Shown one piece after another: positions 35,390 through 56,918 of a stretch of 64,000 nucleotides of DNA. The position numbers were made by a program, and so were the translations under genes. A model generated the notes under the pieces. It saw only the letters and a program-made list of their open reading frames with translations. It was not told the origin of the DNA and searched no databases. Source of the stretch: Alphaproteobacteria bacterium (GTDB lineage: Bacteria; Pseudomonadota; Alphaproteobacteria; UBA6615); NCBI GenBank assembly GCA_009691025.1, contig SHWB01000008.1:1-64000 (forward strand), written 5' to 3'. Position 1 is the first letter of the stretch. The number at the start of each line of letters is the position of its first letter.

Positions 35390-36697
35390 TTACACCCCCC
35401 GCGACCCCGCGAGATACCGGCGCGCCAGCACCTTGCCGTCCTCGACCGCCGGCTGGTCGTAGGGGTCGACGCCGAGCAGATGCGCGGCGACGATCGTCTC
35501 CAGCATGTAATGCATCATCAGCGCGCCCATGGTCGGCGCGTCGACGCGCCCGAGCGCGATGGTGCGCGTCGGCCGGCCGTGGCCTACCAGCGTGTCAACG
35601 GTCGCCTGCGCCATCGCCTCCAGCAGATCGCCTGGCGTCCGTCCGCCGAGGTAGTCCGAGCCTATGGCCGTCGCCAGCACCGGGTCGAGGCGCTCGCCGA
35701 GATTGGCGGTCGGGCTGGTCAGCACCGTCATCATCTTGTCGGCCGGCCCGTCGAGCCAGAGCTGCAGCTGGCTGTGCTGGTCGACCGTGCCCAGCGCGTC
35801 GACCGGCGTCATGCCGAGCCCGCCCTTGCCGAGGCTCTCGGCCCAGAGCTGGCGCCACCACTGGCCGAGCGGCCGCAGCCGGTCGCTGTAGGGCAGGAAG
35901 ACGCTGGTGGCGACGCCGTGGTGGCGCGCCAGCGCGACGGAAACGGCGGCGCCGAGGGCGGGCGGTGCCTCGGCGGGATCCTTGGCGCCGAGCGTGGCAT
36001 CGAGCACGAAGGCGGCACCCTCGCGGATGGCGACCGGATCGAGGCCGGCGAGGATGGCCGGCAGCATGCCGACGAGCGAAAGGACCGCGTAGCGCCCGCC
36101 GATCCCCGGATCGTGGTCGAGCACACGCGCGCCCCATTGCCCGGCGAAGCGGCGCAGCGGCCGGTCGCCCGGCTCGGTGATCGCCACCAGCGAGCGGGCC
36201 AGCGCGCCCTTGCCCTGGTAATGCTCCATCCAGCCGGTCAGCGCGAGAAGCTGTGCCAGCGTCTCGGCCGTGCCGCCGGATTTGGAGATGGCCAGCAGGC
36301 AGGCGCGTTCGAGATCGACGCGCGCCACCAGCATTTCCAGCGTCGCCGGATCGATGTTGTCGAGGAAGACCAGCCGCGGCGCGCCCTGGCGCGGCCCGAA
36401 GCCCCAATCCGACAGCGTCGTCAGCGTGCGCCCGCCGAGCGAGGAGCCGCCGGTGCCGAGCACGATGACGGTATCGAAGCGCTCGCGCATCCCGCGCGCC
36501 ACCTCCGCCAGTTCCTGCAGATCGTCGCGCTTGCCCGGTAGCGCCAGCAACGGCAGCGTCGCCTTGTCGCGCGCCGTGCGCAGGCTCGCCAGGGCCGGAA
36601 CGGTGGCCTTGAGCGTCGCCGCGAGTTCGGCCCGCGTCAGGCCGCCCGCGCCGGCGGCATCGGCAAGGCAGCCGTCGATCGACTGGCGGTAGAGCAT
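35390..36697 (-). CDS. pgi: Glucose-6-phosphate isomerase
   Basis: A 435-residue SIS-fold phosphoglucose isomerase, shorter than the 550-residue enterobacterial form but usual for this class. The sugar-phosphate site is in VLGTGGSSLGGRTL and ISKSGGTAETLAQ; GGRYAVLSLVGMLPA and the catalytic Glu region QWWRQLWAESLGKGG follow; DQHSQLQLWLDGP and PYDQPAVEDGK close the domain. ATG at 36697 gives MLYRQSIDGCL; the longer frame runs through repeat DNA. It forms one unit with mutL. Confidence 0.9.
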   Translation of the reverse strand: MLYRQSIDGCLADAAGAGGLTRAELAATLKATVPALASLRTARDKATLPLLALPGKRDDLQELAEVARGMRERFDTVIVLGTGGSSLGGRTLTTLSDWGFGPRQGAPRLVFLDNIDPATLEMLVARVDLERACLLAISKSGGTAETLAQLLALTGWMEHYQGKGALARSLVAITEPGDRPLRRFAGQWGARVLDHDPGIGGRYAVLSLVGMLPAILAGLDPVAIREGAAFVLDATLGAKDPAEAPPALGAAVSVALARHHGVATSVFLPYSDRLRPLGQWWRQLWAESLGKGGLGMTPVDALGTVDQHSQLQLWLDGPADKMMTVLTSPTANLGERLDPVLATAIGSDYLGGRTPGDLLEAMAQATVDTLVGHGRPTRTIALGRVDAPTMGALMMHYMLETIVAAHLLGVDPYDQPAVEDGKVLARRYLAGSRGV

Positions 36698-36734
36698 CGG
36701 TGGTTCTCCGTGGCGTTCACCCGGCGGGCCTGCC

Positions 36735-36945
36735 TCCTCATCCTTCGACAGGCTCATGATGAGGATGGGGGAATGGCCTGGGGACTTCGAATGGCTATGT
36801 GGATTTCGCCAGAATAAACTCGTTACTCCCAATCGTCCTCATCCTGAGCCTGTCGAAGGATAGAATCTTCACGCAACTCCAATATTTCCATCGGCCGACA
36901 CATTCCCCCACAATCCTCATCCTGAGCCTGTCGAATGACGAGGAT
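36735..36945. repeat. Three dispersed repeat cores between pgi and GIY-YIG gene
   Basis: Cores lie at 36738-36768 (forward form), 36834-36862 and 36915-36943 (both CCTCATCCTGAGCCTGTCGA). The last one runs into the 3' end of the GIY-YIG gene and supplies its final codons and stop. Confidence 0.75.
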
Positions 36946-37231
36946 TGTCAGCCCGGTGGCGCGACCGCGCCTGCAAGGCTTCCCAATCCTTTCGGACGAT
37001 GGGCTCCTTCTTCGCCCTTGACCACCCCTTGATCTGGCGTCCGGCCGTTATGGCGTCAGTAATGCGCTGGAACGCCTGGTGCCAGACGAGGACCACGTGT
37101 CGTCGTCGCTTCGTGAAGCCTTCGACAGCGCCCTCGTTGTGCTGTGCGACGCGTAGCTCGAGCGAGCCGAGTGTGGAGCCGACGCAGTAGCGTCCGTCCG
37201 CGCATCGCAGCATGTAGACGGTTGCGGTCAT
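36917..37231 (-). CDS. GIY-YIG nuclease family protein
   Basis: A 104-residue protein with a single GIY-YIG domain: VYMLRCADGRYCVGST corresponds to the GIY and YIG strands, then LRVAQHNEG, TKRRRHVVLVW, the helix FQRITDAITAGRQIKGWSRAKK and the terminal KDWEALQ. Members cut DNA or are of unknown role. The final residues ADNPRHSTGSG are encoded by a dispersed repeat, so the original C-terminus has been replaced or extended. The catalytic Glu of the family is not obvious; Glu in the helix region may be Gln or absent, so activity is uncertain. Confidence 0.8.
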   Translation of the reverse strand: MTATVYMLRCADGRYCVGSTLGSLELRVAQHNEGAVEGFTKRRRHVVLVWHQAFQRITDAITAGRQIKGWSRAKKEPIVRKDWEALQARSRHRADNPRHSTGSG

Positions 37232-52325: not shown

Positions 52326-53393
52326 TTAGGCGCTGTTGTTCGTCGTCCCGATGCGGCGCATCTGCACGAGGTCGGAGACCACCATTTCGTGCACCAGTTC
52401 GTCGAGCGTCGCGCGCGCCTGCCAGCCTAGCACGCGCCGCGCCTTCGACGGATCGCCGAGCAGCAGGTCCACCTCGGTCGGGCGGAAATAGCGCTGGTCG
52501 ATCGCCACCAGCACCGCACCGGTCGCGACATCGACGCCCTGCTCATCGACGCCGCCGCCCCGCCACTCGATGCGGCGCCCGGTCTCGGCGAAGGCCCGCT
52601 CGACGAAGTCGCGCACCGAAACCGCCTGACCCGTCGCGAGGACGTAGTCGTCCGGCACGGCCTGCTGCAGCATCAGCCACATGCCCTCGACATAATCGCG
52701 CGCATGGCCCCAGTCGCGCTTGGCGTCGAGGTTTCCGAGGTAGAGGCGCTGCTGCAGGCCGAGTTCTATGGCGGCCACGGCGCGCGTAATCTTGCGCGTC
52801 ACGAAAGTCTCGCCCCGCACCGGGCTTTCGTGGTTGAACAGGATACCGTTCGAGGCGTGCAGGCCATAGGCCTCACGGTAATTGACGGTGATCCAGTAGG
52901 CATAGACCTTGGCCGCCGCGTACGGGCTGCGCGGATAGAAGGGCGTCGTCTCGGACTGCGGCACCTCGCGCACCTTGCCGTACAGCTCCGAAGTCGAGGC
53001 CTGGTAGAATCGGCAGGTTGCGCCGAGTTCGAGGATGCGGATCGCCTCCAGCAGGCGCAACGCGCCGAGCGCGTCGGCATTGGCGGTGTACTCCGGCGTC
53101 TCGAACGAAACCTGCACGTGGCTCTGCGCGGCAAGGTTGTAAAGTTCGGTCGGCTTCACCTGCTGGATCAGCCTGATCAGATTGGTGGCGTCCGTCATGT
53201 CGCCGTAATGCATGAAGAAGCGCACGCCGCTTTCGTGCGGGTCGCGATAGAGATGGTCGACGCGGCCGGTGTTGAAGGAGGAGGAGCGTCGCTTGATGCC
53301 ATGCACCTCGTAGCCCCTGGCGAGCAGGAACTCGGCCATATAGGAACCATCCTGGCCGGTAACGCCGGTAATCAGGGCGACCTTGCGGTCCAT
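52326..53393 (-). CDS. gmd: GDP-mannose 4,6-dehydratase
   Basis: A 355-residue extended SDR enzyme that makes GDP-4-keto-6-deoxymannose for fucose, rhamnose or perosamine in surface polysaccharide. NADP motif: [35 protein letters not shown]; catalytic [10 protein letters not shown] and YxxxK in [33 protein letters not shown] binds the nucleotide. ATG at 53393 gives [10 protein letters not shown]. The gene ends GCC TAA TAG; if TAA was GAA, one extra residue preceded the original TAG. No partner sugar genes are nearby. Confidence 0.95.
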
Positions 53394-53535: not shown

Positions 53536-53865
53536 ATGAACGAACGGAAGACCCCCTGGAGCATCAAGGGCGTCGCCGACGACGCCCGCGAGGGGGCGCG
53601 CGCCGCCGCCGAGGCCGGCGGCCTGACGGTCGGCGCCTGGCTCGACCTCGCCATTCGCAACGCGGCCGGCCGCAAACTGGGCGCTAGCGACGGCAGCGGC
53701 GAGGGCAAAACCGAACAGGCCGGCGACGGGCCGGTCGCGCCCGCCCCACCGGCCGACGGCATTCCCGGCTCGCAGACGAAGCTGGCGATCCGCCGTTACC
53801 AGCAGGATTTGGGCTTGAATGTGACGGGCTAGCCGACGGCGGATCCGCTCGCCCACCTGAGGACC
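53536..53865 (+). pseudogene. Peptidoglycan-binding domain protein, interrupted by TAG and joined to AT-rich DNA
   Basis: Begins [20 protein letters not shown] with the KTPWSIKGV and [17 protein letters not shown] start found in alphaproteobacterial proteins related to PodJ or SEL1/peptidoglycan-binding regulators. The C-terminal part is a PF01471-type domain ([20 protein letters not shown]). TAG at 53830-53832 stands in NVTG / PTADPLAHL, where the family has Glu (VTGEPT); GAG to TAG after C fits. The normal end LAHLR is followed at once by the AT-rich patch, in the same frame. The gene is much shorter than relatives, so the middle may also be deleted. Confidence 0.65.
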
Positions 53866-54245
53866 GTGGTACCGCGCGATGACGAACCGACTACTAGATC
53901 CTCACCGAGCCAGCGCGGTGTCACGACTGAGGAAACTCCAATAGCGGCCGTAAGTTTCACGGTCACAAAATTTAGTAGGGTAGAGTTAGCTGCAACAGCT
54001 ATTGCTGTACAGTCCGCACAGTATGAATATGAAAATGTAAGAAAAGTGGAGAACATGATTAAGAATGGTGAAAACAGTGGAGTTCTTCGCGTTTTCTGTT
54101 CTTGGAACAAGATTTTTTAGGCAGCCACAATTGTGTCCCGTGTATTTATAAAACCCTGGGCAGATATTATTTTTGGAAACTGAATCTTATTCATATTCAT
54201 TTCTCACTATTTACCATTCTCACGACGGCAGATTTTTTGGTTATA
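53866..54245. other. AT-rich patch of foreign or decayed DNA
   Basis: Between the peptidoglycan-binding remnant and the ispE end lies about 370 bases of strongly AT-rich DNA (for example AAAATTTAGTAGGGTAGAG, ATGAATATGAAAATG, TTTATAAAACC). The rest of the window has nothing like it. The longest frame, 53866-54120, would give 84 residues with no recognisable domain and is unlikely to be a gene. No terminal inverted repeat, target duplication, transposase or att site was found. Its right edge falls inside the ispE tail. Origin unknown: integrated foreign DNA or an assembly join. Confidence 0.6.
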
Positions 54246-55108
54246 GCGCTCGAGCGGACCCACCAACGGGGCTCAGCGGCAGCAATCCAGTTGGCGGCGG
54301 CCCAAGCAGCCACTGCATCCTTGAATAATCCGAAGCAGGTCGCGCCGCTGCCGCTCATGCGTGCCAGCAGGCAGCCTTCGCGCGCCGACAGCGAGGCTAG
54401 CACGGTGGCGATGTCCGGCACCAACGCCATCGCCGCCGGTTCGAGGTCGTTGCCGCGCGCCGCCAGCAGGCGGGCCAGCGCGCGTACGTCGTCGACGGGG
54501 CCGGCGAAGCGCGCCGCCGTGCCGTGCCGTGCCAGGCCCGATGCCGCATGGCGCGCGAACACCTGCGCGGTCGGCAGGGGAATCCCGGGATTCACGAGGA
54601 CGATGTGGACAGGCGGCAAGGCCGGCGCCGGCGCCAATACCTCCCCGGCACCGCCCGCGAAGGCTGCGCGCCCGACAAGGCACATCGGCACGTCGGCACC
54701 GAGCGCGGCGGCAATGCCCGCGAATTCGCGCGCATCGCGGCGCCACAGCCGCGCGGCGAGACGCAGCGCCGCCGCCGCGTCGGCCGAGCCGCCGCCGATG
54801 CCGGAGGCGACCGGCAGGCGCTTGTCGAGCGACAGCGACAGGTCCGGCGCGCGGCCGAGATGGCGGGCGGCGGCGCGCACCGCGCGCAATACGAGGTCGT
54901 CCTCGCCAGCCGGCAGATCGGCGGCGAAAGGACCCTCGCGATGCAGGGCGAGGCGCGGCGCCGGCCGCACTGTCATCCGGTCGCCGAGGGTGGCGAACGC
55001 GACGAGGCTGTCGAGCAGATGGTAGCCGTCGGCGCGGCGGCCGAGGACGTGCAAATAGAGGTTGATCTTGGCCCGCGCGGTGACGGCCAGTGCCGCCGGT
55101 GCGTCCAT
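54197..55108 (-). CDS. ispE: 4-diphosphocytidyl-2-C-methyl-D-erythritol kinase
   Basis: A 303-residue GHMP kinase of the MEP pathway. [20 protein letters not shown] has the substrate Lys and His; the ATP loop is [31 protein letters not shown] is the third motif. ATG at 55108 gives [17 protein letters not shown]. The normal end is near EPRWWVRS; the last 15 or so residues ([16 protein letters not shown]) come from the AT-rich patch, so the natural C-terminus and stop are replaced. Activity may be kept because this tail is not conserved. It follows the TPR gene by four bases on the same strand. Confidence 0.9.
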
Positions 55109-55112
55109 CCGC

Positions 55113-56867
55113 TCAGATGTCGCGGCGTCCCGCCGGCGCGGCCTTCGCCGCCGGCAGGTCGCGGCCGTCGAGCTTGGCGCGGATTTTTTTCTCGAGGTCG
55201 TCCGCCGGCTCCTGCGATAGCGCGCGCTGCCACTGGAAACTGGCCTCGTTGCGGCGGCCGACGAGCCAGTAGAGGTCACCCAGGTGATCGTTGATCACCG
55301 GATCGTCGGGCACCAGCGCCACAGCCCGTTCGAGCTGCGCAACGGCACCGGCACGATCGCCCAGCAGGTACAGAACCCAGCCCAGCGAGTCGACGATGTA
55401 GCCGTCGAGCGGGCGCTCGCCGACCGCCTTCTCGATCATGGCTCGGGCCCGGTCAAGATTACGGCCCATCTCGACCCAGCTATAGCCGAGATAGTTGAGC
55501 ACCAGTGGCTGGTCCGGCTCGAGTTCCAGCGCGCGCAGGAAATCGGCCTCGGCGCGGTCCCATTTATTGGCGCGTTCCAGCGCGATGCCGCGGCCGTAAT
55601 GCAGTGACCAGTCGCGCACCGGCTCCGGCGTTCGTTCCATCGCCGTGTCGTAGGCGCTCACCGCCTCGTCGAAGCGCTTGCGCGCCCTCATCAGGTCGCC
55701 CAGCGCGCGCGCCGCGTCGGCTCGCTCCGGCCGCTCGGCCATCATCGCGCGCAGCAGCGCGGCCGAGCCATCGACATCCTCCTTGCGCTGCAGCCCATCG
55801 GCGATGGCCAGCCGCGCGAACCAGTGCCACGGCGATCTGGCCTCGATGGTGCGATAGGCGGCGATGGCATCGTCGGTGCGGTCAAGCCGCTCGAAGATCT
55901 GGCCGAGCAGCAAGGCCAGCCGGCCCGATTTCGGCCGCAGCGCCTGCGCCAGGCGCACATACATAAGGGCCGAGGCCGAGACGTCCTCGCGATTGAGCCG
56001 GCCGGCGATAGCGTGCAGCGCGTCGGCCACGCCGTCCGCGGCATTGGCGACAGGCGGCGCCGGCTTGTCGCCGCGCGCGAGGGCGGCGCGCATGGCGGCG
56101 AGCGGCAGCCGCTCGCCCGAGCCGGCCATGTAGCCGTCGACCAGCGCCAGCGCCTCCTTGCCCTTGCCGATCCCGGCGAGGAAGGCCGCGCGAGCCTCGA
56201 TCAGCGGCAGCGGCGGCCTGTCGCCGGTGGCAGCGAGGGCGCGGGCATAGCCGGCCTGCGCCGCCTCGACATCGCCCAGCAGGCCGGCGATGAGAGCCGA
56301 GTGCAGGCCCTCGATGACCTCGAAGCCGCCGACCCCGGACAGCGAGGTGATTTCCGCCAGTGCCTCGTCCTTGGATTTCGCGCCGGCCAGCGCCCAGCCG
56401 CGCAGCAGCGGCACCAGCAGCCGGTTGGCGCCGCGGCGGTCGAGCTTGGCGAGCAATTTGGCGGCCTGCCGGAACTTTCCGTCGCGGATGTCGCGGATGG
56501 CGAGGGTGAGATTGGCCGACGGCGTGGCGGCATCCTTCGCCACGAGGCGCTCGGCCAGCGCCACCGCGTCGGCGAAGCGGCCGCTCGCCCCGAGCAGGAA
56601 CTGCGTGCGCTCCATCAGGGCGGGATCGTCGGGACGCGCCTTGAGCAGGGCCTCGAAATGGGTCGCCGCCGTCGACAGATCGTTGGTCCTTTCGGCCTGG
56701 CGGCCGATCAGGTAATGCGACGACAGGTTGTTCGCCGCCGCGGCGAGGGCGGGCGTCAGCTCGCGCGCCGCCGCGACCGGGCTGGCCAAGGCCACCGCCA
56801 CGAGCCCGGCGAACGCCAGGCCCCGTATCGTCGTCGCTGACAAGCTGCTTGCCTCCGCCCGCGTCAT
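55113..56867 (-). CDS. Exported TPR repeat protein
   Basis: A 584-residue protein with a signal peptide (to about VAAAREL, residue 36) and many tetratricopeptide repeats from residue 50 to the end, clearest at [40 protein letters not shown] and [20 protein letters not shown]. Such proteins are encoded next to ispE in many alphaproteobacteria and are thought to be periplasmic scaffolds; some are lipoproteins, but no lipobox Cys is visible here. ATG at 56867. The downstream gene is ispE, four bases away. Confidence 0.85.
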
Positions 56868-56918
56868 GGCAGGCACTGTACTGCGGATTGCACGCCCGGG
56901 TCACCGCGCCACGGCGCC

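Follow-up and report, generated by a model that had tools for sequence, protein, structure and literature searches.

The window, which is the whole 64,000-nucleotide stretch of the alphaproteobacterial contig that was analyzed, contained an AT-rich insert of 295 bp (53951..54245; 36% GC) that had no detectable relative and was located between the remnant of a broken gene ending in a peptidoglycan-binding (PGB) domain and ispE. The insert is probably a foreign or mobile-element-derived fragment that was inserted by illegitimate recombination, specific to this lineage, beside a gene that was already broken, and its DNA is most likely without function. The GC content of the window averaged 70.3% (SD 4.4), and the lowest 300-bp stretch in a scan of the window (37%) fell at the insert. 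The maximal-scoring AT-rich segment placed the borders at 53951 and 54245, where the drop in composition was abrupt. An earlier note on this DNA described approximately 370 bp of AT-rich sequence with abrupt edges; this is indeed the strongest AT-rich stretch in the window and it is sharply bounded, but only 53951-54245 forms its core, whereas the left 85 bp or so of the described interval (53866-53949) has a GC content of 61% and is host-like, comprising the end of the PGB domain and probably the old spacer. The presumed old spacer and former ispE tail (53883..53950) are host-like in composition, and their extent was deduced from the spacer lengths of relatives and from reading frames that cross the edge.

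The genes on both sides of the insert were recognizable. The left neighbor was gmd, encoding GDP-mannose 4,6-dehydratase (52329..53393, minus strand; Pfam GDP_Man_Dehyd, E 6e-155), in a conserved order. It was followed by the PGB gene remnant of 97 residues (53539..53829, plus strand), which contained an N-terminal motif and a C-terminal PG_binding_1 domain (Pfam E 4e-7) and lacked the internal part that is present in the long gene of relatives. A TAG at 53830-53832 interrupts this frame, and translation of the remnant therefore ends before the insert; the earlier proposal that the edge of the insert continues the remnant's frame needs correction in this respect. Behind this stop, residues similar to the C-terminal ends of the relatives' proteins were found (53833..53882, plus strand), likely representing the old gene end, although the homology reached only approximately 53873-53882; a second frame in this region terminates at 53880-53882. 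On the right, ispE (54200..55108, minus strand; NCBIfam NF011202, 336 bits vs. a cut-off of 204) was adjacent to a gene encoding a TPR protein (55116..56876, minus strand), which was identified by a profile match and whose position is conserved by synteny. Alignment with three relatives indicated that IspE is conserved up to WWV and that its tail differs from theirs beyond this point. Both the reading frames and the alignment bore out the observation that the final residues and stop of ispE are supplied by the AT-rich stretch.

The succession of genes from gmd through the long PGB-ended gene and ispE to the TPR gene was common to relatives. The ispE loci of 21 relatives were fetched, with several of the other contigs or stretches ending early, and gmd was located beside ispE in the same arrangement on the same fetched stretch in seven of these; no other congeneric species was returned by the search. 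Convergent stops were compared in 10 loci. The distance from the stop of the PGB frame to that of ispE was -4, 17, 25, 25, 33, and 42 bp in six loci (L083, L092, L095, L098, L101, and L126), and in a seventh (L100) the PGB-ended frame, as judged by eye, stopped approximately 22 bp from the ispE stop. The remaining three (L091, L097, and L137) did not show an opposing PGB-ended frame. Because relatives keep the order and have the PGB end separated from the ispE stop by -4 to +42 bp, the flanks of the insert are genuine neighbors. A chimeric join of two unrelated loci, which had been raised previously, was thus rejected, as relatives have gmd, the PGB-ended gene, and ispE side by side, arranged and oriented as in the window. 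The genes of relatives are spaced by a few dozen bases, and the window therefore has approximately 300 extra bases; measured between PGB residue 97 and IspE residue 284, the distance was approximately 95-109 bp in three relatives vs. 427 bp here.

Five of the six measured loci had a PGB-ended frame open over 582-832 aa, and only the C-terminal end of the gene (54 aa) was left in the sixth, L098. In L091 and L097, ispE was separated from gmd by 594 and 220 bp, respectively, and an intact PGB gene was absent. Compared with L092, L095, and L101, the gene between gmd and ispE was shortened or lost in L091, L097, and L098. The open frames in five loci, the 54-aa remainder in L098, and the lack of such a frame in L091, L097, and L137 indicate that decay of the middle gene is a recurrent event among these genomes.

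A direct repeat of 6 bp (ATAGCG) was present at both edges of the insert (53941..53946 and 54243..54248) and was weakly above chance: in shuffled edges, a shared 6-mer occurred in a similar register in 0.9% of cases (~0.01) and anywhere in the two edge zones in 11% (0.11). The earlier statement that transposase, inverted ends, and target duplication were all missing was upheld for the first two and needs qualification for the third because of this repeat. No transposase was recognizable in the insert, no inverted match of at least 5 bp was found between the edge zones, and the sole inverted similarity inside the insert was weak, being equaled in 4 of 200 shuffles. Two other candidates were discarded because they lay off the edges and shuffles frequently scored as high, namely an inverted similarity in the flanks (53833-53851 and 54251-54269; 32/300 shuffles) and an 11-bp direct similarity (53834 and 54223; 64/300 shuffles). 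When the flanks were joined in silico and ispE was read through, the outcome depended on the precise edge: two frames stopped early, 20 or 39 bp from 53882, giving a short, relative-like tail, whereas the third gave a long tail running into the PGB gene. The joined version that retained a single ATAGCG was the one with this long tail, unlike the short tail of relatives. The frame test therefore cannot fix the edge, which is uncertain by several bases, and it speaks partly against a clean target duplication.

A low-GC piece of foreign DNA of approximately 295-302 bp, either a decayed mobile-element fragment or another captured piece, probably entered the short spacer where the 3' ends of ispE and the PGB-ended gene converge. 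The probable route would be illegitimate recombination, with a few bases of direct repeat either serving the event or arising from it. Through the insertion, ispE would have exchanged its variable tail, stop included, for a new tail of approximately a dozen residues. Since the insertion struck this variable tail, the conserved core of the enzyme was kept, and the insertion would have been tolerated because the neighboring gene was broken and is dispensable in other lineages. Ku was not found in this 61%-complete genome, and neither was ComEC; Ku was present in 3 of the 24 genomes searched and, within the family, in 1 of 14 other genomes. End-joining and natural uptake thus have no positive support, and neither end-joining nor competence is claimed for this incomplete genome.

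No source for the insert was found in any collection searched. The searches covered plasmids, phages, viral contigs, E. coli, and bacterial genomes. The best matches were at E 1 among plasmid DNA and at E 0.03 over 48 bases among phage DNA, neither of which was convincing, and tblastn of the insert frames against plasmids and phages remained at chance level. The E. coli search was likewise unconvincing, as were searches for an exact 24-mer of the insert in GTDB and viral contigs and peptide patterns in viral contigs (only a 56-residue inner part for the first frame). Nothing convincing was obtained with the insert DNA in 289 genomes sampled from the class, where a 37-bp match of 84% in one genome (E 6e-4) was regarded as chance, or with both frames in 398 genomes sampled from the phylum. 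Literature searches yielded nothing on inserts of this type. Captured foreign DNA or the remnant of a small element, as the earlier note suggested, is still the best reading, although it lacks a source in these collections.

GC-rich bacterial genomes can carry AT-rich insertions that are orphans, as well as scars left by decayed mobile elements. The insert resembles these in being short and AT-rich with abrupt edges, in adjoining a broken gene, and in having no visible function, but it differs from them in having no recognizable transposase, ends, or family and only the 6-bp direct repeat. MITE-like elements, which are non-autonomous, are similar in that the insert is approximately 300 bp long and AT-rich with a possible short target duplication; on the other hand, the insert has neither terminal inverted repeats nor a second copy in the available genome. 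Identity as a repeat or MITE was rejected, since the insert is inverted-end-free and occurs once in its own draft genome (27 contigs, 1.67 Mb, 61% complete).

Other explanations were weighed against insertion. A short functional element, such as a small RNA, a small protein, or a regulatory region, is the least probable of these. Two open frames of 84 and 93 aa, on opposite strands across part of the insert, would favor it, but neither belonged to a family in Pfam, PDB, or PHROGs beyond chance level, weak matches to TRASH_ZMYM4 (E 0.05), Tail_tube (E 0.23), and PHROGs (~0.1) were regarded as chance, and a coding role was rejected because the frames had no relatives in protein or genome searches. 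Furthermore, the insert was unmatched in Rfam even at E 10, its folding on both strands was no better than that of shuffles (z 1.03 and -1.23), and it contained no promoter or terminator pattern. Decay in place, by which a non-coding leftover of the broken middle gene would have drifted to AT under mutation bias, is improbable. The adjacent gene is indeed broken, the same genome has further AT-rich islands, and bacterial mutation is reported to be generally AT-biased (PMC2936535). However, the PGB end alongside the insert is still alignable and GC-rich, the insert edges are abrupt, and the spacer of relatives is just -4 to 42 bp, so that no 295 bp existed there to decay.

A local assembly or gap-filling error, in which a read or pair of reads of foreign origin was put into a correct spacer, is unlikely but deserves more weight. 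At approximately 295 bp, the insert is about as long as a merged short-read pair, and its lack of any relative in the collections, in a draft genome this fragmented and incomplete, would fit such an error. The flanks that are true neighbors in relatives and the lack of any run of N in the stretch count against it, and neither is decisive. It is very unlikely that the insert represents eukaryotic DNA, e.g., of a host animal, captured in the bacterial chromosome. Candidate signs are the AT-richness, a CpG ratio of 0.73 vs. 0.96-1.09 in three sampled AT-rich islands of the same genome, and a GTAAGT at 53950 with TTTTTTAG approximately 170 bases on, which look splice-signal-like by eye.

Although the insert is isolated within the window, as previously described, it is not so in the genome. 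A survey of other contigs of the same draft genome, covering 20 stretches and 382,955 bases in all, revealed five further islands with a 200-bp GC minimum of ≤44% and a sixth, borderline one (0.495). Two of the five (L189 and L196) resembled upstream regions of genes by eye. The island at the start of contig 4 (G000; L186:112-600) consisted of approximately 490 bp of AT-rich orphan DNA between a gene fragment and an intact frame, which presumably encodes isoleucyl-tRNA synthetase (ileS), and shared no sequence with the insert. The gene fragment in this arrangement (L186:1-700 as a whole) was truncated after approximately 37 residues of homology; in its relatives the open frames are far longer (402-444 aa; five aligned), with the match at residues 38-108. 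The layout of a broken gene, orphan AT-rich DNA, and an intact gene therefore recurs at least once, although this comparison is weakened because the fragment sits at a contig end. The idea that islands lie at contig ends was set aside: one occurred within the first 750 bases in 3 of the 20 sampled contig starts, and none below 45% GC was found in 14 further contig ends and six further starts (3 kb each). The last 3 kb of contig 4 (L205) had a GC content of approximately 56%, far below the rest of the genome. A lower-GC spot in the window (36691-36990) carried several copies of a TCATCCTGAGCCTGTCGAA-like motif in both orientations, apparently a dispersed repeat, and a near-perfect long inverted repeat with approximately 45 bases per arm was seen by eye shortly before a tRNA-like sequence (L201:12840-12950).

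The importance of the insert is probably modest. It does warn against trusting the ispE end annotated in this draft assembly. If the source of the insert were eukaryotic, it would exemplify an uncommon kind of transfer, from a eukaryote to a bacterium. If the insertion of a foreign or mobile-element-derived fragment is real, it would represent a small case in which foreign DNA became established where a site was decaying, with the adjacent essential gene unharmed and with relatives supplying the arrangement of the site before insertion.
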